A DNA stretch of 64,000 nucleotides from Candidatus Saccharimonadota bacterium. Its GTDB lineage: Bacteria > Patescibacteriota > Saccharimonadia > Saccharimonadales > Saccharimonadaceae. Each line of letters starts with the position of its first letter. Within the stretch, counting starts at the first letter, position 1. The notes beneath the pieces are model-generated. The model worked only from the letters and a program-made list of their open reading frames with translations, searched no databases and was not told the DNA's origin. The DNA lies in NCBI GenBank assembly GCA_003246575.1, contig QJZZ01000001.1:405926-469925 (forward strand), given 5' to 3'. The position numbers and the translations under genes are program-made. Positions 19,553 through 31,236 of the stretch are shown in pieces.

Positions 19553-19621
19553 CGGGCAAGAGTTCCTGGCGCATATTTTCGGGTGGAGGTCAGGAGTTGA
19601 GAGCATTTCCGATTTCAAACC
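19553..19621 (+). repeat. 70-bp hairpin repeat, copy 1
   Basis: Shares about 85 percent of positions, by eye, with 20714-20778. The core is a hairpin: AGTTCCTGGC pairs with GTCAGGAGTT across an 18-base loop. The one stem difference between copies (GTCAG versus GCCAG) keeps pairing (G-U for G-C), which suggests the structure matters. Each copy lies just upstream of the promoter of a GC-rich minus-strand gene and next to a terminator-like hairpin. Confidence 0.65.
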
Positions 19622-20658: not shown

Positions 20659-20679
20659 TCTATTTGCGAGGATTAGGTA

Positions 20680-20696
20680 CGGGTAAGGAGACTCTA
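20680..20696 (+). repeat. Left attachment site core (displaced tRNA-Gly 3' end)
   Basis: 17 bases identical to 31166-31182. Directly right of it ACTCTTG (20698-20704) and CAAGAGT (20717-20723) form a perfect 7-base inverted repeat, which may be part of the recombinase-binding arm. Confidence 0.8.
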
Positions 20697-20713: not shown

Positions 20714-20778
20714 GGCAGGCAAGAGTTCCTGGCGCATGTTTTCGGGTCGAGGCCAGGAGTTAGGCATTCTCCGATTCA
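20714..20778 (+). repeat. 70-bp hairpin repeat, copy 2
   Basis: Second copy of the repeat at 19553, inside the left end of the integrative element. Stem AGTTCCTGGC / GCCAGGAGTT. Part of it (GAGGCCAGGAGTTAG) also resembles the T-arm side of the tRNA-Gly(GCC) gene, in the opposite orientation to the left att core. Confidence 0.65.
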
Positions 20779-20937: not shown

Positions 20938-22362
20938 TTATGATGAGAGCTTATCTCTAAAGAATCTGATCGCTTCATCTATCGCTGCGTAGCTAATATC
21001 TATATTTGCATCATTTCTTCTATTGGCTGGGTGATGGAACTTATTTCTAATACAAGAATACTTTGAGAGTCTCTGTATGTCGCCATTCTCACGCTCCCAG
21101 TCTATTTTCTCTGCATCAGGGACGCCAATGGCACGATCAATACCGGCTATACTGTCTTGACCATTTGCCTCACCAAATTGGTTATACAGTTCGATAAAGT
21201 ACTCCATCGATGCGAGACCGAAAGCTACATAATTTGTCTCACTAACTGTAGGCATTGGAAGAACGAATTCTTCTATGGGATTGATGCTTATTACTTCATT
21301 ATTACGAATAATGGCGTTAATCTTGTGATGTTTATTTTTTTGTAAATCCTTCAAAAGTTCTGGAGAGTGAGACGTAATAATAACCTGACTATCTTTTGAA
21401 ATCTCAAGCAATAAGTCAACTAATGATTTCTGAAGACGAGGATGTAAGTTTAGCTCAACCTCATCAATAAAGATTATCAATTTCTTGCCAGACTGTTCGC
21501 TAATCTTGTGCTGACATATAAGTGCAAGAAACATTTGATAGCCACTGCCTATTCGCTCGATTGGTATTTGACTGCGGTTTAAGTCTTTAAAGCCAAGAAA
21601 CGCTTTTTTGAAGGGCTGCTGGTTATCCATGACACTGAGACTGACTTCGTAGCCGGTTATTTCCCTGAAATATGCGAAAGCCTCATTAAGCTGCTCGTTA
21701 GTGACATTTGTCTCGCCCACATTAATCGCGGCATCAACTGCAGCATGAAGGTCTAGAGGCTCGTTATTGTAAGCTTTTAGATACTGGAAGTTTAAGTTAT
21801 CTAATATTCTGTCAAATCGCGTTTGTGAATATGTACCCGACTCAAGCGTTTTGACGCGATTTTTGTCAATAAATACATAGTCATTTTCTTTGAACCTTGG
21901 TCCGGCAAATGGATTATTAACAGCTGTGCGTAGATCTGGGCTATTTTCGTCAGGAGCGCCGGTGCCGGTAGCAATAAAGTGCGTGTCACTTACAATCGTT
22001 CCTACTGCATATTGTGCAGAGTTCTGAGTACGCAACTTTGCAGTATATTTAAATCCACTCGCTTGAAAATCACCTCTAATAGTCTTTTTAACTGAAAAAG
22101 GCGCGCTAGAACTCAGTGTAATATCAATAGGTTCTTTAATATCTGTAAAGTCAAGCATGCTCGCTGCTTCGGCTTTGTAGGAAACGAGTGGTATAGATAT
22201 GGCTTCTAAAATACTACTCTTGCCCACACCATTTTCTCCTACGATAACCGTTAGTCCTGAGCCATCATTGATACCATCAGGGACAGCAAGATGAGTAGAA
22301 TTCAGCGTGAAGGGTGTTTTAAACACTCTGTAATTTGTTATCTTCGCTGTGCTAATAAACAT
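20938..22362 (-). CDS. ABC/SMC-type AAA ATPase with HEPN-like C-terminus
   Basis: 474 residues. An OLD/AAA_15-like ATPase: N-terminal ITNYRVFK, Walker A VGENGVGKSS (Lys near 48), the signature-like GSGYQMFLAL, Walker B KKLIIFIDEVELNLHP and the H-loop ITSHSPELL. In place of a TOPRIM nuclease the last 110 residues are helical and contain CIRNKFHHPANR, where R439-N-K-F-H-H444 fits the R-x4-6-H motif of HEPN ribonucleases. Comparable ATPase-nuclease fusions act in abortive phage defence. Divergent from the zinc-finger gene by 64 bases; ends near the element's left edge. The HEPN call rests on the motif alone. Confidence 0.8.
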   Translation of the reverse strand: MFISTAKITNYRVFKTPFTLNSTHLAVPDGINDGSGLTVIVGENGVGKSSILEAISIPLVSYKAEAASMLDFTDIKEPIDITLSSSAPFSVKKTIRGDFQASGFKYTAKLRTQNSAQYAVGTIVSDTHFIATGTGAPDENSPDLRTAVNNPFAGPRFKENDYVFIDKNRVKTLESGTYSQTRFDRILDNLNFQYLKAYNNEPLDLHAAVDAAINVGETNVTNEQLNEAFAYFREITGYEVSLSVMDNQQPFKKAFLGFKDLNRSQIPIERIGSGYQMFLALICQHKISEQSGKKLIIFIDEVELNLHPRLQKSLVDLLLEISKDSQVIITSHSPELLKDLQKNKHHKINAIIRNNEVISINPIEEFVLPMPTVSETNYVAFGLASMEYFIELYNQFGEANGQDSIAGIDRAIGVPDAEKIDWERENGDIQRLSKYSCIRNKFHHPANRRNDANIDISYAAIDEAIRFFRDKLSS

Positions 22363-22426: not shown

Positions 22427-22972
22427 ATGCACGAACTAACCGAAAAAGAATTCAATTCATTTAAGCGAATATGCGAGAAAGACGGCATCAAATATGATAC
22501 CGAGGAAGAATACAGAGAGGCTGCTCGTAATCTATTTGAATATGTGAAGCTTACATATGAAATGGCTCGAGAGCATCACGGGTGGGAGCAGCGCCTAAAA
22601 GACGAGCCAAGAGGATTCTGGCTAGATAGCGCAGGTCGCACATGCTATGTATGTCATACAAATGTCCATGGTCAGATTTGGTTCGATAAGTGGGGTTTAA
22701 AGTGCGCAAATTGCCAGGAAGCTTTTGAAAAGAAAGTATTCCCAGGTTACGTATTAAAAGATAGAGATAATGAAAAGCACGTAACAGACTCACAGTTGAA
22801 TTGGAAGTACGGCGTATGTCCTCGGACGATCAAAAAACTTACAAGAACGGGTTTACTCAAGGCGAGACAGATACCCAATGGTCCAGCGATATTCTTAAGG
22901 AAAGAAAATCCAGATCTGCCTCAAATCATACGAGACTATAAAAAGCCTGCACCCTCATCCTCTAATAAATAA
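22427..22972 (+). CDS. Zinc-finger and HTH-like protein, unknown
   Basis: 181 residues. The N-terminal 60 residues are helical (KEFNSFKRICEKDGIKYD); the middle has CYVC...CANC, a four-Cys zinc ribbon; the end (YGVCPRTIKKLTRTGLLKAR) looks like a helix-turn-helix of the MerR/excisionase kind. It may regulate the element or act as a directionality factor. AGGAG lies before the ATG. The stop overlaps the end of the methyltransferase gene by 11 bases. Confidence 0.6.
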   Translation: MHELTEKEFNSFKRICEKDGIKYDTEEEYREAARNLFEYVKLTYEMAREHHGWEQRLKDEPRGFWLDSAGRTCYVCHTNVHGQIWFDKWGLKCANCQEAFEKKVFPGYVLKDRDNEKHVTDSQLNWKYGVCPRTIKKLTRTGLLKARQIPNGPAIFLRKENPDLPQIIRDYKKPAPSSSNK

Positions 22973-24620
22973 AGCTCTGCTTTTTAAGTCTTCTCGTAAG
23001 AAGCTTCAAATATATTCCACTCAACATGTCTATTTCTTGATCACTTAAACCATAGTGGTCTTTCAGGATGATGCTATTCGTAAATGAAAGTACCTCACTT
23101 ATCTTTGCGTTCCTTCTCAGCAACTTGTCCAGGCGATTTAACTGTGTCTTGCTTATACCTTTTACAAATGGGACCGGGAGATTCTTGTATTCATTAGGCA
23201 TAAGCTCGAGAACGCCGCCGCCATAGTACCTACCTTCAAGCTCCGCATATATGAAAGACAGGGTATTGTGAAATGAAAAGACCAAATCTCTAATTTTATA
23301 CCCCTCGTTCATTTTTATTCTGTAGAATGAGTCGGTCACTAATGCATCTGCTGAATTTATATACATGCGAGGAAACAGCCCAGAGCGCTTGGTAAAAAAG
23401 CCTTCCGATACCCATACAGAAGGCACATAGTACCAGTTATTGCGTAGCAGCATCTTATACCTTGTATGTAGTCCTCTATTTTCGCCTTCGTTGATGTAGC
23501 TTTTTAACGCTAATGGGAAGTCTCGTTGAGATGTGTCTTCAAACGCAAGAAAGTTTGTGGCTATACCCAACTCACCGACACTGTTCAAGTCATTTTTGGT
23601 TAGCTCGATGCCGGAAGCCTTATGTAGACCTTTCTGTAGCATAGGCTTGCTTATGTCGGATAATGATTTCTCCCTAACGACGTCATCGTTAACAATAAAG
23701 AAATCATTTGCAGCAGTAACAACACCGACAACTGCACTGCAGTAACTTTTAACTGGCTCAAGTTTAAGGTTCTGCCTTAGATCATCCAAAAATCGTAGCT
23801 CGTTGTCGGACAAGATGTAATTAGTCCATTTATCCAAAGTCTTTCGATGCACATTACTATGATCGGGAACATAAGACGGCTCCTCTAGTTGCTGTAGCTT
23901 ATCGACATGGTAAAATGAAACGCCTTTCTTACCTTTCTTGGAACAGAATAGAATAATCGCGTCTTGCTCAATATCTGGGAAAATAAGTTCGTTAAAAGTG
24001 AATATTTCAATTCTCTCAAACTCATCTTTAAGATAATCTCTGAGTTCTTTTGCGTAAATTACCTGGAGTAACTCAGCAGGTAGGACAAAACACAAAACCC
24101 CTTCATCACTTAGTGACTGGACGCCACCTACCAAGAAGCTTGTCCAGATGTTCTTTATTTTCTTCGAACTCAAATTAGAAGCCTTGTGTATACGCTCGCA
24201 TCCCTCTATCTGTTCCTTCGTTAAAGAGGTACTTCTGATGTAAGGAGGATTGCCAATAATAAGGTCGTATTTCTGTTCATTCTTTTCGTGAAATTTCAAA
24301 TAGTCTTCATGTAGATACTTTATTTCGTTTGACTTTGTTTGAAAGCGGCTCGTTTTTTCTTTTAATGCGTTATACGCATCGAGACTATATTCGACCGCTG
24401 TGAGGTGTATCTTTGGTAGTTTTTTAAATCTATCCTTAAAGAATTGATTGTCAAAGATTGAATTGAAGAATATACCGTCTCCCGCGCTAGGCTCCAGGAC
24501 TCTGATGGACTTGGCAAACTTATATTCGCTCATATCGCCAAACAAGTGGTATGCAATAAAATCCGCCAAAAGGGGTGGCGTATAGTAGGAGCCTGTTTCT
24601 TTTCGATCGCTATTCTTCAT
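22962..24620 (-). CDS. N6-adenine DNA methyltransferase (Eco57I-like)
   Basis: 552 residues. TGSYYTPPLLADF (X motif) , VLEPSAGDGIF (motif I, SAM binding, near 42-51), a motif II acidic turn after LTAVEYS, and IIGNPPYIRS (motif IV, NPPY near 124-127) define a class gamma N6-adenine methyltransferase. The C-terminal 250 residues form a target-recognition-like region (SYCSAVVGVVTAANDFF, YVPSVWVSEGFF). Last gene of the coupled kinase-receiver-HNH-methyltransferase operon (4-base overlap with HNH), so it likely marks self DNA. Confidence 0.9.
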   Translation of the reverse strand: MKNSDRKETGSYYTPPLLADFIAYHLFGDMSEYKFAKSIRVLEPSAGDGIFFNSIFDNQFFKDRFKKLPKIHLTAVEYSLDAYNALKEKTSRFQTKSNEIKYLHEDYLKFHEKNEQKYDLIIGNPPYIRSTSLTKEQIEGCERIHKASNLSSKKIKNIWTSFLVGGVQSLSDEGVLCFVLPAELLQVIYAKELRDYLKDEFERIEIFTFNELIFPDIEQDAIILFCSKKGKKGVSFYHVDKLQQLEEPSYVPDHSNVHRKTLDKWTNYILSDNELRFLDDLRQNLKLEPVKSYCSAVVGVVTAANDFFIVNDDVVREKSLSDISKPMLQKGLHKASGIELTKNDLNSVGELGIATNFLAFEDTSQRDFPLALKSYINEGENRGLHTRYKMLLRNNWYYVPSVWVSEGFFTKRSGLFPRMYINSADALVTDSFYRIKMNEGYKIRDLVFSFHNTLSFIYAELEGRYYGGGVLELMPNEYKNLPVPFVKGISKTQLNRLDKLLRRNAKISEVLSFTNSIILKDHYGLSDQEIDMLSGIYLKLLTRRLKKQSFIY

Positions 24621-25255
24621 CGTACGATCTGACTATAATTCCCTGAAAGATACTGCAGGTAACTAGTGAATTCATCATCTAGATCAACAATAGCCTGCAC
24701 AATATCCCTCCTATCTGCGTCTGGGATATTGGGTAGATTACGAAGCCGGTGGAGTTCTACCTTGCGATCATGAAGCTGATCAAGCCTCCAGAAGAACTCG
24801 TAGCGCCTGAGATATAGTTTTAGTTTGCGCCACATATATTCGGCGATTGGGTCGGCTTTAGGTACAATCCCTCCACTATCGGTTCTTTCAAAATACTCGT
24901 TAAAGTCCATGCATGGGTCATAGTAGCCCATGTCCTCTGTCGTAGGCTCTTCCGGGTCATCTGTAGCCCAGTCATTGCTTTTCGCTCGGTTGATCTGAGG
25001 GCATGCATATACGAGATTTCCGTATACCGTTTCTAGTGCTGTAAATTTTGCAAGCTTTACAGCATCAGTAATTTTAGGCTTTTGGGGAGCAAAATGATCA
25101 ATTTGAAAGCCGCCTGCCCACCACATATCTCGGCAGTCAGTATAGCCACACCTATGATTGAAATCTTGCGCTAGCTGTTCACGATAATCTTGGTAGTTGG
25201 TCTTTTGTAGCCCTGTGTATGTTCTTTGCGGACTACTGTTGCGAAATGTCTTCAT
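24617..25255 (-). CDS. HNH endonuclease-like protein
   Basis: 212 residues. Core NHRCGYTDC, GGFQIDHFAPQKP, YGNLVYACPQINRAKSN: D53-H54, N80 and N89/N94 fit a beta-beta-alpha-metal HNH site, and the four Cys/His surrounding it a structural zinc. The C-terminal 100 residues are helical with many charged residues. Its start lies 23 bases inside the receiver gene and its stop overlaps the methyltransferase by 4, so the four proteins are made together. Likely the DNA-cutting arm of the system. Confidence 0.8.
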   Translation of the reverse strand: MKTFRNSSPQRTYTGLQKTNYQDYREQLAQDFNHRCGYTDCRDMWWAGGFQIDHFAPQKPKITDAVKLAKFTALETVYGNLVYACPQINRAKSNDWATDDPEEPTTEDMGYYDPCMDFNEYFERTDSGGIVPKADPIAEYMWRKLKLYLRRYEFFWRLDQLHDRKVELHRLRNLPNIPDADRRDIVQAIVDLDDEFTSYLQYLSGNYSQIVR

Positions 25256-25895
25256 ATGCTTTGAGCCTATTAATTAAGTCGTCCGTTTTTGTTAGCAATT
25301 CTCCTAGTCTTGTATCATTGGTGCTGGTGAGAACCTCTTTGGGTATACCCCTAGCGTCAGCATCCAAAATTTCATCAAGAAAATCGTCGAGTCGAATTGA
25401 CTCATCTTCTTCATCTGCAGAGAGTCCTATGTCGGTTGCTCGCTTCTGCGCTAACTGCTCAAGCTTCTCCTCGGCTTCTTTAATATCATTCTGATACTGC
25501 TCGACCTTAGCGATAATTCTGGCGCTAAACGCAGGTCGTAGTTCATCACTTAAGTACTCTTTCTTACTACGAACCTTTTCGATATCAAGCCCCTTAACAC
25601 TTTCGATAGCTCCCTGATCTTGATTGGTAAGGAGCATTGTCGGAAAATGAGGAAATCTCCTTAGGAAGTCGATTAAAACAGCATCTCCATCGAAGCCGCA
25701 GCCACTCTTTTCGTTAAGGTGATAGTCGACGATAAGATAATCAAATTCTTTTTCACTTAACTTATCAATGAGATTGGAAAACTGGATATCGCTAAAATCG
25801 ACAGTTTCAACCTCAAAAACGTCTATGAACTTTCGCTTAAACTGACGAATTTCACCCTCGTCTTCATCGATGTACATTACTTTAAGCGGATTCAT
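25233..25895 (-). CDS. Receiver-domain protein without DNA-binding output
   Basis: 220 residues. The receiver (REC) domain covers 1-120: acidic pocket D10-E11-D12, phospho-acceptor LIVDYHL (Asp near 57), LLTNQD (Thr near 90) and SKK (Lys near 111). An insert after the acceptor (NEKSGCGFDGDAV) is longer than usual. The remainder is acidic coiled coil (KVEQYQNDIKEAEEKLEQL) with no DNA-binding domain, so output is by protein contact, plausibly with the HNH protein. ATG overlaps the end of the kinase gene (4 bases). Confidence 0.85.
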   Translation of the reverse strand: MNPLKVMYIDEDEGEIRQFKRKFIDVFEVETVDFSDIQFSNLIDKLSEKEFDYLIVDYHLNEKSGCGFDGDAVLIDFLRRFPHFPTMLLTNQDQGAIESVKGLDIEKVRSKKEYLSDELRPAFSARIIAKVEQYQNDIKEAEEKLEQLAQKRATDIGLSADEEDESIRLDDFLDEILDADARGIPKEVLTSTNDTRLGELLTKTDDLINRLKAYEDISQQ

Positions 25896-28219
25896 GACTT
25901 TGCTCCTCGCGGCAATGCAATTGTAAGGGTAAACCCATCCGGGTTTTCGATAATATTTATTTCGCCCTTACTCTCATCAACGATACTTTTAACCAAATAC
26001 ATACCCATGCCGGTGCCGATTGCTTTACCCGTGCTATCCCTCTTGGTTGTTTTTTGAGGTAGGAATATTTGACTTGGATTCGTCTTAAAGCTTTCATCTA
26101 GCCCAGCCCCATTGTCTTTGTAGGTAATAAGATATCTCTTTTGCGACGACTTGCAGGTAATTTCTATGCTTCTACTATCACGGTTCTTCTTTCTGGCAAA
26201 GGACTCAACCGAATTGATTATCAGATTGTTAAAAATAGTGTCCAGGTCAATTGGAAATAATCTTACTAACGCGTCATCTTCACTTTGGATGTTTAGAGCA
26301 ATTCGACGCTCTTTCAGTAGATTTGACCAGTTCTGCTTTAGACCGTCAAAGTAGTCGTTAAGATATATGGATGAGAGTTTTCGACGATCTCTTTTTAGCG
26401 GCATAAGGGCATAGTTCAACCACTCTTTAATGCTGTAGTCCGTCTTTTCCATATCATCTAGTAGAATGAAGGGATTCTGCTCTTCTTTTAAGAGCCTTAG
26501 CTGCTCATCTTTAATGAGTGGCTGTACTAACTCGCGAAGGTCTTTAGTCCTTGTAGATAGATTATTTTCCAGCGCTCTTAGCTCATGTGCGGCAGCTGCG
26601 GTTATCAAACCGGCACTCGCAAGACTACGAAGAATCTTAATTTCTTCATTCTTATCCTCGATCTCTTCTTCTTGGACGGCATACGCTGCGGCCAAGTCCT
26701 GCGCATCTGCGGCGGCATTTGCGCCATTTGTAGAAGTTGCAGTCGGCTGGGTGTCTGGATCGTCACTCTGCTTCTTATTTAATCGGTCCGCAACCTCTTT
26801 GCCGCGCTGCTTCTTACTCTCGTTCTCATTTTCAACTTTGTATAGTTCAGCAAGAGGATAAAACGTATGGTTTCTGTCCTCTTCAAGCAAAGCAATAATT
26901 TCCAAGACGACGTTTTTAAATAGACGAAACGTATCATTTTCTTTAATACCTTCTCGGCTCGACTTGTCCTCAAGCTGAAGGTTCTTGATCCGAGAGATAT
27001 TAATACCACCCGAAAGCTGGTTTGGTCCGAAACGGAAGCCAGTAGGCGCTTGACCAGCACCGCCAGGACTTCTGGCTTTTCGCTCACCGAGCCTTAGCCA
27101 ATCATCGCCGGTTTCTCCGTATGGTCTAACTCTGAAGTTATCTCGAAATACTTTAATGCCGCCAAAGCGACTAAGCCATTCTTTGCGTCTTGAGTAGTCA
27201 GAATTTTTATAAGGGAACTTTTTCGAATCGTTACTGCCAGGCGGCTGATTTTTCATGAAGATTATTGTCATCGAGAAATCGCCTAATTTTTCGACATCTT
27301 CAGAAAAGTCTTTTAGCCCAGGAATTATATCGTATAGGCTATATTCCCTCGTATAGCTACCTTTTTGAAATGTTTCCAGATCGTAAGGGAACTCTTTCAT
27401 AGCAGGATTATTAAAGACTGCAGAATATTGCTTACTAAGAGCAGCCACATCCAACTCATTCCTGTAGATTGTTGCATGTATCTTGTTTGTCTTACTGTCG
27501 TAGGTTGCAAACATCTTTGAGTCGAAGTCGTCTTCCGTTATCGGGCTAACTTCGCCGAATTGACCTGGAAACTCAGATGCAAATAGGCTAATTGTAAACC
27601 CATCCTCCTCAGTATTCGGGACTAGCGTTTCGAGATTTTCATATAGCTTCGTGATGTCATCCTTGGACCAGCTATCTCTTAATCTGGAAATGCGAAGCAC
27701 CGTACCATGATCAGAAAGGGCGCTACCAACCTCCTTTTTATATTGTTCAGGCAAGATTGAGGCTAGTTTAAGGTTCGAGACTTCGTCATATTCGGCAGTG
27801 ATTTCACTGATTGACTTTGCAGCTGCCTCGAACGACTCCCACTCTACTTCCCATTGAAATCCACTATTTGAATTTTCTGGAACTGTATACATCAGCGCGC
27901 CGCCGCCTAGACGATCCATAGCAAAGCGACCGATGCCTTTTGCTCCTGTTTTTACACGCTTTTTCTTGGTATACGGATTTACTTCTTTATTGTCCGTACC
28001 TATCGTCATCCATTCATTTTCTATGACACTACTTGTCATACCGCTTCCATTATCAATAATGAAGAGATCTTGCTCATGGAAGATGATAAACGCGTTTGTC
28101 GCGTCTGCATCGTGGGCATTTTTAACAAGTTCAATAAGTGCGCCTTCGGCGTTGCTAACATTCTCTCGTCCGATTAGCCGCGCGGTACGTGATGATACTT
28201 TGAATGGAATTTTAGTCAT
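25892..28219 (-). CDS. Dual-GHKL histidine kinase
   Basis: 775 residues from the ATG ending at 28219 (AGGGGA upstream; an in-frame TTG eight codons earlier is less likely). Domains: N-terminal MORC/Hsp90-like GHKL ATPase (ALIELVKNAHDADA, IIDNGSGM, GAKGIGRFAMDRLG, near 27-104) with its transducer region (GGIKVFRDNFRVRPYG); an Ala-rich linker and coiled coil near 490-535; a DHp helix TAAAAHELRALENNL with phospho-acceptor His near 545; and a second, kinase-type HATPase (NNLIINSVESF, YKDNGAGL, IFLPQKTTK, GTGMGMYLVKSI, 660-745). No membrane segment, so it senses something in the cytoplasm. First gene of the operon. Confidence 0.9.
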   Translation of the reverse strand: MTKIPFKVSSRTARLIGRENVSNAEGALIELVKNAHDADATNAFIIFHEQDLFIIDNGSGMTSSVIENEWMTIGTDNKEVNPYTKKKRVKTGAKGIGRFAMDRLGGGALMYTVPENSNSGFQWEVEWESFEAAAKSISEITAEYDEVSNLKLASILPEQYKKEVGSALSDHGTVLRISRLRDSWSKDDITKLYENLETLVPNTEEDGFTISLFASEFPGQFGEVSPITEDDFDSKMFATYDSKTNKIHATIYRNELDVAALSKQYSAVFNNPAMKEFPYDLETFQKGSYTREYSLYDIIPGLKDFSEDVEKLGDFSMTIIFMKNQPPGSNDSKKFPYKNSDYSRRKEWLSRFGGIKVFRDNFRVRPYGETGDDWLRLGERKARSPGGAGQAPTGFRFGPNQLSGGINISRIKNLQLEDKSSREGIKENDTFRLFKNVVLEIIALLEEDRNHTFYPLAELYKVENENESKKQRGKEVADRLNKKQSDDPDTQPTATSTNGANAAADAQDLAAAYAVQEEEIEDKNEEIKILRSLASAGLITAAAAHELRALENNLSTRTKDLRELVQPLIKDEQLRLLKEEQNPFILLDDMEKTDYSIKEWLNYALMPLKRDRRKLSSIYLNDYFDGLKQNWSNLLKERRIALNIQSEDDALVRLFPIDLDTIFNNLIINSVESFARKKNRDSRSIEITCKSSQKRYLITYKDNGAGLDESFKTNPSQIFLPQKTTKRDSTGKAIGTGMGMYLVKSIVDESKGEINIIENPDGFTLTIALPRGAKS

Positions 28220-28567
28220 TAAAGTTATTTCCCCTGCAGACAAAATATATTGCTTACTCTCATCATATCACCTCTGATGTATATATGAGTAAAACTGCAG
28301 TAGTATATTCATACCATTGGGGAATCTGAGAGCGTTTTTACCAATTTCAACTACTTTTGATTGCTTTTGAGCCTAATATTCATAGCAATATTAATCAAAA
28401 TATTACTCAAATATAGGCGGGGTGGTCGCCCTTTGTCTCTGTTAACTAGACTCCGCAGTATAAATACCGAATTTATGGGGGCAACTTTTTCAAGTATTTT
28501 TTCTGTACGCATTTTACATATGCAGCACCTCTATCATGCGCGTATGGCATATATAGGTCAGAAACTA
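28220..28567. other. Intergenic region upstream of the kinase operon
   Basis: 348 bases without a convincing gene. It holds the leftward promoter of the kinase operon (a minus-strand extended -10, TGaTATGAT, near 28264-28272) and AT-rich sequence beyond it. Confidence 0.4.
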
Positions 28568-28738: not shown

Positions 28739-29152
28739 ATGAAAGACAAGACAATATTTAAGAAGTGGTGGTTTTGGGCAATAGCCGTAGTCATCATACT
28801 TGGAGCTGTTGGCTCATTAGGTCAAAGCGATAAAGATGATACAGCCAACACTGCAAACAACTCTCCAAGCGCTAGTATCAACCCTTCTACGCTGCCAAAG
28901 CTTAACGCAGATGACTACAAAGGCAAGGAAGGTCTGGTTGTTTACAAAGAGCTGCAGACTAAAGGCTATAAAGTAGATGCTGCGTTTGAAAACCAAGCAC
29001 TAACCGATATTAACGGTAAAGCATCCGACTTGTTCGAGCCACTTGATCCAAACAAGGCTGATGATAAGCAATCGGTGGACGCATTTGTGGTCGGTAGTTT
29101 AGTGCAGGACGGTGACAGCGTAATGCTGACTATTGCTAAGTCATCCAACTAA
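28739..29152 (+). CDS. Small membrane-anchored extracellular protein
   Basis: 137 residues. N-terminal WWFWAIAVVIILGAVGSLG is a membrane anchor after KDKTIFKK; a Ser/Asn/Pro-rich linker (35-55) leads to a small outer domain with YKGKEGLVVYKELQTKGY, reminiscent of PASTA-like repeats (not certain). CGGAGG precedes the ATG. It is cargo of the integrative element, between two RNA candidates, and could alter the surface. No Cys lipobox. Confidence 0.65.
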   Translation: MKDKTIFKKWWFWAIAVVIILGAVGSLGQSDKDDTANTANNSPSASINPSTLPKLNADDYKGKEGLVVYKELQTKGYKVDAAFENQALTDINGKASDLFEPLDPNKADDKQSVDAFVVGSLVQDGDSVMLTIAKSSN

Positions 29153-29523: not shown

Positions 29524-31218
29524 ATGTCTGAACTAGCCAACACCCAAGACTTACTAAAACTTCTTCAGTCGAGTCAAGCTAAAGCACCTAAAGACGTTGA
29601 TACGGCTACAGTTCGGTATGCCCTCTATACTAGAAAGTCTACGACAAGTGAGGACCGACAGGCTTCTTCTATCGAGGATCAGATAGATGATTGTTATGAG
29701 AAAGTTATAATCCCAAACAATCTCAACGTAGTGAAGACCTATCAAGAGAGTTATTCCGCGAAGGTCGCCGATCTGCGAGAACAGTTCAATGCAATGATTA
29801 AGGAAATCGAGAGCGGTAACATCGACGGTATCATAGCTTGGCATCCCGACAGGCTTTCTCGAAATATGAAAGAAGCGGGGGCTATCATTGACCTTGTTGA
29901 CAGAGGTGCGGTAAAAGACCTCCAATTCGCAACATTTACATTTGAAAATACACCTGCAGGAAAAATGCTCTTGGGCATTACATTTGTTATGGCAAAGCAA
30001 TATTCAGAACACCTTGCGGAAAGTGTTGATAGGGGTAACAAACGTGCAGTTGAGGATGGTGAGTTCATCGGTAAATTTAAACATGGCTACATCGTGGATA
30101 TTAACCGGTACTTTACACCAGACCCATTGAGTTTCGAGAAGGTTCAGCATATGTTCGAGATGGCGCTAAACGGCAAGTCGCAGAAAGATATTCGTCTTTG
30201 GATAAATGAGCAAAACTACACTGTTCAGAAGCGTCAAGGCGGACCTCACGAACCACATAAATGGGATAAGGACGATGTATCAAAACTTCTCCGCGATCCC
30301 CATTACGTCGGCGTTCATAAATGGGGTAAGACATTTACCGATCTAACCAGCCTATATGACTTCAAGCCGATGCTTACCGTCAGTGAATTCCTATCAATCA
30401 ACAAAATCGACAGTCTAGATGACGCTAAGGTCTTGGCGATTCATAGACCTAAGGGAGGTAATATACAGGCCGACTTACTACGAGGCTTAGTTTATTGCGG
30501 AAGGTGTAATAAGACACTTACATCGATGCTTGTGCCGAAGAAAAATGAGCTTACGGGCGAGATCATTGAGAAGCGTTACTATTACAAATGCGAGACAACG
30601 GCTTGCCCTATGCGTAATAAGTCCGCACGAGGAGGATTTGTAGTAAACACAGCCCAAGAATTCTTTAGGCAATATTTGTTTATAACTAAGAGTAACTATG
30701 CGGAGTATCTCAAGCAGGCAAATATAGAAGTGAAGCGAAAAACTACAGAACTTGATTCTACTATAGCGAAATTAAAGACGCTCGTAGCCAATAAAGAGCA
30801 GATTTATGAAAAGACAAAGGATTTAGTTAGGGATAACCCGGAGTTTAAAGACCATTACGACCTCGATAAGCATGTTAAGCAAATCAATAAGTTGAGTACT
30901 GATTATAAACGCGCAATCAAGCAAAAAGACAATATTAAAGCTACGATTCCAACTTTTCAAGAATATCTCAAACTTTTGGAAACCACCCCCGTTATTCTTG
31001 GCAAAATACGGGACATGGAGACCATGGATGCATTGCTCCGAATTTTCTTCTCTAACTTTATTATTCACCCGGCAAAAGATGGTACTTTTCGGGGGTCGAC
31101 AGTGTCTTATAAACTAAACGAACCCTGGAAAGGGTTCGTAGATACCAATGATTTCGTTCTTGGTGCGGGTAAGGAGACTCTAACTCCTGGCCTCTTCCAT
31201 GGCAAGGAAGCGCTCTAA
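29524..31218 (+). CDS. Large serine recombinase (integrase)
   Basis: 564 residues. Resolvase domain RYALYTRKSTTSEDRQASS (catalytic Ser near 39), GIIAWHPDRLSRN (catalytic Arg), then the recombinase domain, a zinc ribbon CGRC...CETTAC and a coiled coil (about 400-485). TATAAT at 29512-29517 puts transcription start on the ATG (leaderless). The reading frame runs through the right att core into the tRNA-Gly gene: the last 12 residues after GKETL (TPGLFHGKEAL) come from chromosomal tRNA sequence. In the excised circle the frame would instead end GKETLDS-stop. Confidence 0.92.
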   Translation: MSELANTQDLLKLLQSSQAKAPKDVDTATVRYALYTRKSTTSEDRQASSIEDQIDDCYEKVIIPNNLNVVKTYQESYSAKVADLREQFNAMIKEIESGNIDGIIAWHPDRLSRNMKEAGAIIDLVDRGAVKDLQFATFTFENTPAGKMLLGITFVMAKQYSEHLAESVDRGNKRAVEDGEFIGKFKHGYIVDINRYFTPDPLSFEKVQHMFEMALNGKSQKDIRLWINEQNYTVQKRQGGPHEPHKWDKDDVSKLLRDPHYVGVHKWGKTFTDLTSLYDFKPMLTVSEFLSINKIDSLDDAKVLAIHRPKGGNIQADLLRGLVYCGRCNKTLTSMLVPKKNELTGEIIEKRYYYKCETTACPMRNKSARGGFVVNTAQEFFRQYLFITKSNYAEYLKQANIEVKRKTTELDSTIAKLKTLVANKEQIYEKTKDLVRDNPEFKDHYDLDKHVKQINKLSTDYKRAIKQKDNIKATIPTFQEYLKLLETTPVILGKIRDMETMDALLRIFFSNFIIHPAKDGTFRGSTVSYKLNEPWKGFVDTNDFVLGAGKETLTPGLFHGKEAL

Positions 31219-31236
31219 CAACTGAGCTATACCCGC
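31161..31236 (-). tRNA. tRNA-Gly(GCC), CCA encoded, integration target
   Basis: Minus-strand cloverleaf: acceptor GCGGGTA with TACCCGC, D-arm GCTCAGTTGTTAGAGC, anticodon arm CTTCC-TTGCCAT-GGAAG (GCC), T-arm with loop TTAGAGT; CCA at 31161-31163. Its 3' part contains the right att core 31166-31182, so the intact tRNA is rebuilt by the element. Confidence 0.95.
31166..31182 (+). repeat. Right attachment site core
   Basis: CGGGTAAGGAGACTCTA, identical to 20680-20696. It lies within the tRNA-Gly acceptor and T-arm and within the integrase reading frame at once. Confidence 0.85.

Follow-up and report, generated by a model that had tools for sequence, protein, structure and literature searches.

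A mobile four-gene operon of histidine kinase, receiver, PtuB-type HNH nuclease and adenine methyltransferase as a candidate restriction-like defence system under proposed phosphorelay control

Introduction

Gene control is the commonest reading of a histidine kinase accompanied by a receiver. In the Detocs system, a histidine kinase and receivers act directly on an immune effector, an ATP-cleaving enzyme carried on a receiver. Here we describe an operon encoding a histidine kinase with two GHKL domains, a receiver, an HNH nuclease and an adenine methyltransferase in a Candidatus Saccharimonadota bacterium (assembly GCA_003246575.1, genome of 0.93 Mb). The whole stretch of DNA analysed, hereafter the window, comprises 64,000 nt of the forward strand (QJZZ01000001.1:405,926-469,925). 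Compared with Detocs, the effector of the window is a PtuB-type nuclease in a gene of its own, and a GHL domain and a methyltransferase are present in addition.

The nearest published relative appears to be the two-component-like pair HEF_HK/Response_reg_2, which Bellieny-Rabelo et al. 2021 (PMC8011034) found beside restriction-modification genes, mostly those of cytosine methyltransferases, and for which they proposed a two-component role connected with restriction-modification. According to the passages of that paper considered here, the pair and the window set have in common a soluble kinase made of HATPase_c_3, a phospho-His helix and HATPase_c, with adjoining receiver-like and methyltransferase genes. 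The query regulator of that study has 600 amino acids, however, whereas the window encodes a 220-residue receiver, a separate PtuB-type HNH nuclease and an adenine methyltransferase in one operon. Both domains that define the published pair are absent here: HEF_HK (PF19191) was detected neither in the kinase at E<=0.1, nor in the genome at E<=10, nor in any of 33 aligned kinases at 0.001, and Response_reg_2 (PF19192) was detected neither in the receiver at E<=0.1 nor in the genome at E<=10.

The PtuB-type nuclease is shared with the PtuAB pair of Septu and the effector pair of retrons Ec78/Ec83, but the window set has no conserved PtuA ATPase; the kinase, receiver and methyltransferase stand where PtuA stands in those pairs. 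The parts of Iyer et al. 2008 (PMC2292703) drawn on here describe MORC and paraMORC GHKL ATPases whose genes accompany those of nucleases and methylases, paraMORC1 being placed in some operons that contain HNH endonucleases. The N-terminal GHKL ATPase of the window kinase, with intact nucleotide motifs, resembles these proteins, but the kinase carries a second GHKL domain and a His helix, and the words 'receiver' and 'two-component' occur nowhere in the text of that paper. VcSduA (PMC12137116) is a GHKL ATPase-nuclease in which, as stated in the sections considered, both ATPase and nuclease residues are required for defence; there the two activities are in one chain and those sections describe no phosphorelay, whereas in the window they are encoded by separate genes.

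An earlier note on this DNA had claimed that no system with exactly this set is described. As for the catalogue, the claim stands, since no named system of PADLOC 2.0.0 (2023) covers all four proteins; likewise, no description of the set was seen in the open-licence literature, a scope outside which all bioRxiv preprints and most subscription papers lie. Two qualifications are needed, the analogous pair of PMC8011034 and a figure legend of PMC13092281 (2026), which mentions HATPase and REC domains in connection with predicted defence systems; to judge from the legend alone, the four-gene set may be drawn in that figure. The set is not described in the passages considered of PMC12839542, PMC7824862, PMC7159879 and PMC12421847.

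Results

Four-gene operon in the window

Four intact open reading frames (ORFs) on the minus strand encode, in order, the kinase, receiver, HNH nuclease and methyltransferase, with overlaps of 4, 23 and 4 bases between consecutive genes, as the earlier note had read them.

25892..28219, minus strand: cytosolic histidine kinase, 775 amino acids from ATG (Pfam, alignment)
26585..26587, minus strand: codon of the presumed phospho-acceptor His545 (computed from the kinase ORF start)
25233..25895, minus strand: receiver protein, 220 amino acids (model topology, Foldseek, 78-row profile)
25725..25727, minus strand: codon of receiver Asp57
24617..25255, minus strand: PtuB-type HNH nuclease, 212 amino acids (PADLOC, profile, structure)
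22962..24620, minus strand: Eco57I-type N6-adenine DNA methyltransferase, 552 amino acids (ORF, Pfam, PADLOC, NPPY motif)

The open frame of the kinase also permits a TTG start at 28243. The features of a two-component system (His and Asp acceptors, catalytic ATP domain, acidic pocket) are present, as is that of type II restriction-modification, a methyltransferase and a nuclease encoded together. Residue conservation was followed in 83 complete sets, namely the window, 62 loci from genomes, 16 from viral contigs and 4 from plasmids, after removal of any set in which a gene was short or absent.

The predicted dual-GHKL architecture of the kinase was recovered by Pfam, with HATPase_c_3 at residues 24-150 (2.3e-19) and HATPase_c at 657-771 (6.7e-15), a pairing found in 33/33 kinases of an alignment in which 30 of the 33 come from other layouts. 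The layout comprises an N-terminal GHL/MORC-like ATPase, a conserved middle stretch (RDxFxVxPYG...DWL), His545 and the C-terminal HATPase_c. His545 is invariant both in this alignment and in 83/83 sets, and N665 and N669 in 83/83 sets. The GHKL motif residues E30, N34, D56, G58, G60, G92, K94, G95 and G97 are invariant across the 33 kinases, N34 being kept in 82/83 sets. In the BbrUII/HgiDII restriction enzymes a GHKL ATPase is linked to a nuclease, and the NCBIfam model of these enzymes is the best NCBIfam match of the GHL domain (kinase residues 16-192, 2.3e-15), although its 56 bits are far under the cut-off of 550. PADLOC matched the kinase to REase_II only, and weakly (7.3e-8).

The single receiver sequence has no Pfam receiver match, the best being DUF4848 (0.082), and no PADLOC match. 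An AlphaFold2 model of it, with a mean pLDDT of 81.3, shows receiver topology, with Asp57 ending a central strand; the top Foldseek rows for this model are response regulators (best E 9.1e-6), and among solved structures a profile of 78 rows finds receivers (best 1.1e-7). Asp57 is invariant in the 78 alignment rows and in 83/83 sets, positions 10 and 11 form an acidic pair (D/E in 83/83), position 90 is T/S in 83/83 and position 111 is K/R in 76/83. In agreement with the earlier note, no DNA-binding or transcriptional output domain was seen in the model, which continues from residue 120 as a helical extension (180-197 at low confidence). Direct receiver-HNH fusions numbered 0 among the ORFs of 168 neighbourhoods.

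The HNH nuclease was assigned to the PtuB type by PADLOC (PtuB/HNH_I-A, 5.7e-9), by PDB profile (E 4.9e-9) and by structure, the ten best structural rows all being PtuB-type. Pfam gave a weak match to GmrSD_C (9.1e-4, under cut-off), and the protein falls under the curated NCBIfam cut-offs for TIGR02646 and PtuB. Foldseek alone was also weak (best E 0.091, with endonuclease I, Cap5 and SspE among the first rows), the PtuB assignment coming from a second look. The protein is small, without a visible recognition domain, and C36, H54, N80, C85, N89 and K92 are invariant in 83/83 sets. Cys39 and Cys88 are replaced together, by Thr and by Val or Ile, in 9/83 sets: the window (24992-25141), L018, L024, L028, L031, L034, L041, L059 and L092. 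Since both are lost in the same nine sets, we read the loss from these zinc-type Cys pairs as a concerted change that would mark a second consistent form of the nuclease and not decay.

The methyltransferase, which the earlier note had taken for an Eco57I-like N6-adenine enzyme, matches Eco57I plus M_Eco57I_C in Pfam (2.4e-35) and MTase_II in PADLOC (1.4e-148). The window motif is NPPY at 124-127. His545, Asp57, the HNH residues and NPPY are all present as that note had said, and NPP, like the others, is kept in 83/83 sets.

Distribution of the four-gene set

A 30-kinase alignment was used to scan genome contigs (at least 548 relatives, the best 80 of which were kept) and viral contigs (80 relatives), and the genes around each kinase were called by script. 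Because the genome loci are the best 80 by similarity, this sample favours close relatives. By script, all four genes were present in 66/80 genome loci that the kinase search alone had retrieved, with the methyltransferase 3' of the core in 35, 5' in 29 and on both sides in 2; reading by hand raised the count to 69/80, so that the co-occurrence check proposed in the earlier note came out in its favour. The three loci added are L064, whose receiver frame is intact but had been missed by the script, L084, with a divergent receiver recognised by eye, and L076. Among the other 11 genome loci, eight lie at contig ends: L010, L022, L049, L062 and L068 are flagged as such, and L060, L073 and L085 carry kinase, receiver and HNH genes at the ends of short contigs. 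The kinase is broken or cut in L050 and L052, and L089 has a 405-residue regulator instead.

The 66 complete genome loci span ten named phyla (assigned by hand from record titles, two uncultured excluded), and four loci on plasmids bring in Bacteroides, Salipiger, Ensifer and Deinococcus. The set is shared by bacteria of about ten phyla. All four genes were also found in 17/80 viral contigs. Wherever both receiver and HNH genes are present, the order kinase, receiver, HNH is kept (87/87 loci) and the genes overlap or nearly abut; a methyltransferase gene is also present in 83 of these 87, three of the four without it being ends of short contigs. In control genes of at least 120 amino acids and over four places from the kinase, the profiles matched 0/577 for the receiver, 1/577 for HNH and 2/577 for the methyltransferase. 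A reverse search from HNH with two small alignments gave ten viral loci, all adjoining a receiver gene or a kinase locus: nine lie on contigs that the kinase scan had already yielded, and in the tenth a receiver gene stands upstream, followed by the contig end. Since the queries were the HNH proteins of four-gene sets, this search favours close kin.

The flanking families, shown for 25 of 88, include type I specificity and methyltransferase, SoFic, MAD5 and SpbK. From 209 flanking proteins, 139 were drawn at random and 100 of these analysed (the first 101 less one repeat). As this survey has no control set, the defence-island context is not counted as evidence. A blastn search of E. coli with the kinase-receiver-HNH stretch of Pantoea gave no match.

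In L076:3827-9034, on a contig titled Patescibacteria and with in-frame TGA codons, the four-gene set is complete under code 25, in which TGA is read as glycine; the choice of this code is our own, prompted by the contig title. The genes look as if long resident in a recoded lineage. On a Klebsiella variicola plasmid (L006), the kinase gene is broken up into three annotated ORFs; methyltransferase, receiver-like and HNH genes adjoin it, and a gene annotated as anti-phage, ppl, is nearby.

Co-variation of the four genes

Distance matrices of the 83 sets gave a correlation (rho) of 0.81 for kinase and HNH, 0.66 for kinase and receiver and 0.47 for kinase and methyltransferase; the best of 200 permutations was 0.15. 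Kinase, receiver and nuclease are thus a co-varying core. Where the methyltransferase lies 3' (43 sets), rho was 0.19 between kinase and methyltransferase and -0.01 between HNH and methyltransferase. The methyltransferase has been replaced at least once, the one clear case being L012: when compared with L013, L014, L019 and L032, its kinase is 61-63% and its HNH 59-62% identical, and its methyltransferase 15-19%.

Genes in place of the nuclease

In three loci (L106, L108 and L135) an MBL-fold protein follows the receiver in the place of HNH, as the second gene after the kinase; the L135 protein matches Pfam PF00753 over cut-off. L044 also encodes a weaker MBL relative, which is separated from its complete set and lies three genes upstream. 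Behind the kinase and receiver genes of L131 comes a gene for 221 amino acids (L131:10235-10900), and a cytosine methyltransferase is encoded upstream. This protein has no Pfam match, and a caspase-like reading of it, made by eye and without Pfam support, was rejected.

For the 62 viral relatives without a receiver-HNH pair, a gene of 300-650 amino acids lies directly after the kinase in 53, a methyltransferase was seen in 34, and both in 29. Such relatives with large regulators have a layout like that of the published HEF_HK pair. Pfam scans gave no support for their membership in HEF_HK/Response_reg_2: 0/30 such kinases match HEF_HK, and Response_reg_2 was found in none of 7 regulators of other layouts. 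In L110, L115, L126, L128, L141, L150 and L169, a regulator of 339-410 amino acids is followed, as second gene after the kinase, by one of a family of proteins of 244-316 amino acids, to which no function is assigned and which is perhaps another effector type.

Discussion

Proposed mechanism and alternatives

Any model starts from what was observed: four closely packed genes, the residues they encode, the conservation of the group and a single clear case of a replaced methyltransferase. The HgiDII-type match of the kinase, the GHKL-driven nuclease VcSduA, the receiver without DNA-binding output and the changeable effector together lead us to consider a nuclease placed under phosphate control by a GHL sensor. 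From the sequences we infer the sensing, the phosphotransfer, the gating of the nuclease, its substrate and the role of methylation as a self mark. The model, to which we give an even chance, is a mobile restriction-like defence in which the kinase would detect unmodified DNA, a relay from His545 to Asp57 would free the PtuB-type HNH nuclease and the methyltransferase would mark self. The soluble dual-GHKL kinase would detect invading DNA lacking the modification, its N-terminal GHL ATPase possibly serving as DNA sensor or clamp by analogy with the HgiDII/BbrUII enzymes and with the Shedu-like nuclease that has GHKL and nuclease in one chain. Phosphate would then move from kinase His545 to receiver Asp57. 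Because the receiver shows no DNA-binding domain and its gene directly precedes the nuclease gene, it is proposed to act on the nuclease by contact and not on a promoter. The released nuclease would cut the invading DNA, adenine methylation marking the DNA of the cell itself. Either the methyltransferase would read the target sequence or only the presence of its mark would be read, a step left in this form because the kinase-receiver-nuclease core can persist when the methyltransferase is swapped.

Several observations weigh against this proposal. The 40 sets with a 5' methyltransferase co-vary with the core (rho 0.69 with kinase, 0.57 with HNH), and exchange is therefore not general; the four L012 pairs reflect a single exchange, and methyltransferases that are unrelated can still have a common target. 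The PtuB nucleases of retron systems are reported to attack tRNA, so invading DNA need not be the target. The window nuclease itself has Thr for Cys39 and Ile for Cys88 of the usual Cys pairs, and in L049, a locus at a contig end, methyltransferase and kinase are preceded by a receiver-like gene, an arrangement found in no other locus. The kinase was found (E<=1e-40) in 1/379 genomes sampled from the host phylum, the window genome itself, so that nothing says the set works in this host; at 1e-20 it was again restricted to the window genome among 61 genomes of the source and its near kin. The kinase is rare in annotated mobile DNA: 109/72,556 plasmid records match it, 5 of them with at least 80% coverage, and the matches in 2/50,697 phage records are partial, neither reaching this coverage.

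The two leading models differ chiefly in the target of the nuclease, invader or host. In an abortive version, which we hold unlikely but the most serious of the alternatives, the kinase would watch for infection or for lost self-methylation, the receiver would free HNH on host DNA or tRNA, the cell would die and the methyltransferase would serve as bait or guard instead of protecting self DNA. The nuclease does group with PtuB of Septu and retron Ec78, whose effectors are abortive, and a separate release switch would suit a dangerous, non-specific nuclease; moreover, the core does not track the methyltransferase in the 3' group, and another enzyme, of MBL fold, can occupy the effector slot. 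The presence of the methyltransferase in nearly all receiver-HNH loci (83 of 87, three of the four exceptions at short contig ends) fits restriction-modification instead. The same loci might encode an ordinary type II restriction-modification system with added regulation, in which a site-specific HNH nuclease is matched to the methyltransferase and kinase and receiver are accessories of timing or expression. Although methyltransferase and separate nuclease share an operon and all genes co-vary in the 5' group, we consider this improbable: HNH does not track the methyltransferase in the 3' group or in L012, the receiver has no DNA-binding domain that could be seen, and the PtuB-like nuclease is small and without a visible recognition domain. 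Least probable in our judgement is an inverse logic in which the kinase of a healthy cell keeps the receiver phosphorylated and the nuclease held off until infection either shuts the kinase down or converts it to a phosphatase. The same genes and residues would serve, as the sequence gives no sign of the direction of control.

The restriction-like model, if true, implies that bacteria run restriction through the His-Asp relay of gene regulation, with a nuclease instead of a promoter as the output. It would explain why dual-GHKL kinases occur beside methyltransferases, and would give the PtuB nuclease a second trigger free of PtuA. The old question of how a MORC-type ATPase distinguishes self from foreign DNA could then be tested in an operon of four genes, by single-residue switches at H545 and D57. 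Somewhat more tentatively than the model itself, we suggest that phosphorelay restriction may form an uncatalogued class of immunity, composed of a MORC-like sensor-kinase, an aspartyl-phosphate alarm, interchangeable effectors (PtuB-type HNH, MBL-fold enzyme, receiver-fused domains) and exchangeable methyltransferases, and extending over about ten phyla into a lineage with TGA as glycine.

The mobile element

The operon lies within a 10.5-kb element flanked by a pair of 21-base repeats.

20676..20696, plus strand: left att-like direct repeat (20/21 bases identical to the right copy)
20938..22362, minus strand: cargo ATPase, AAA_15/AAA_21, OLD/PtuA-like (Pfam, PADLOC)
22427..22972, plus strand, opposite to the operon: protein of 181 amino acids, between ATPase and operon, function not assigned
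28739..29152, plus strand: protein of 137 amino acids with an N-terminal hydrophobic stretch, function not assigned
29524..31218, plus strand: large serine recombinase (Pfam Resolvase + Recombinase; PHROG integrase 2.1e-59)
31161..31236, minus strand: tRNA-Gly (GCC), presumed integration target
31162..31182, plus strand: right att-like direct repeat, within the 3' end of tRNA-Gly (GCC)

The end of the recombinase gene overlaps the 3' end of the tRNA-Gly gene that carries the right repeat. The GC content of the element is 0.415, against 0.505 for the rest of the window, the lowest other 10.5-kb window sampled having 0.480. The repeat, the tRNA-Gly 3' end, the serine recombinase and this composition agree with the integrative element proposed in the earlier note. 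The right-flank gene is present in 20/21 genomes examined, its own included, and no empty integration site was found in the relatives' loci scanned; the element call rests on repeat and base composition. In 7 of 11 fetched loci of relatives, scanned over about 1.5 kb or less upstream, tRNA-Gly was found in 0 and tRNA-Phe in 1.

A promoter-like site is located upstream of the operon at 28598-28569, but shuffled sequences contain no fewer sites of this kind (mean 20.3, against 17 observed). At the left edge of the element, a 44-base direct repeat (93%) occurs at 19555-19598 and 20718-20761, 1.16 kb apart, with one copy outside; the pair may be the trace of an older or second insertion.

The PtuA-like cargo ATPase was considered as a partner of the HNH nuclease and rejected, being outside the operon and with a relative (2.8e-6) near only 1/165 other loci. 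Its C-terminus reads RNKFHH (residue 439), which resembles the pattern of HEPN RNases, and this stand-alone ATPase is possibly a second defence gene of the element.

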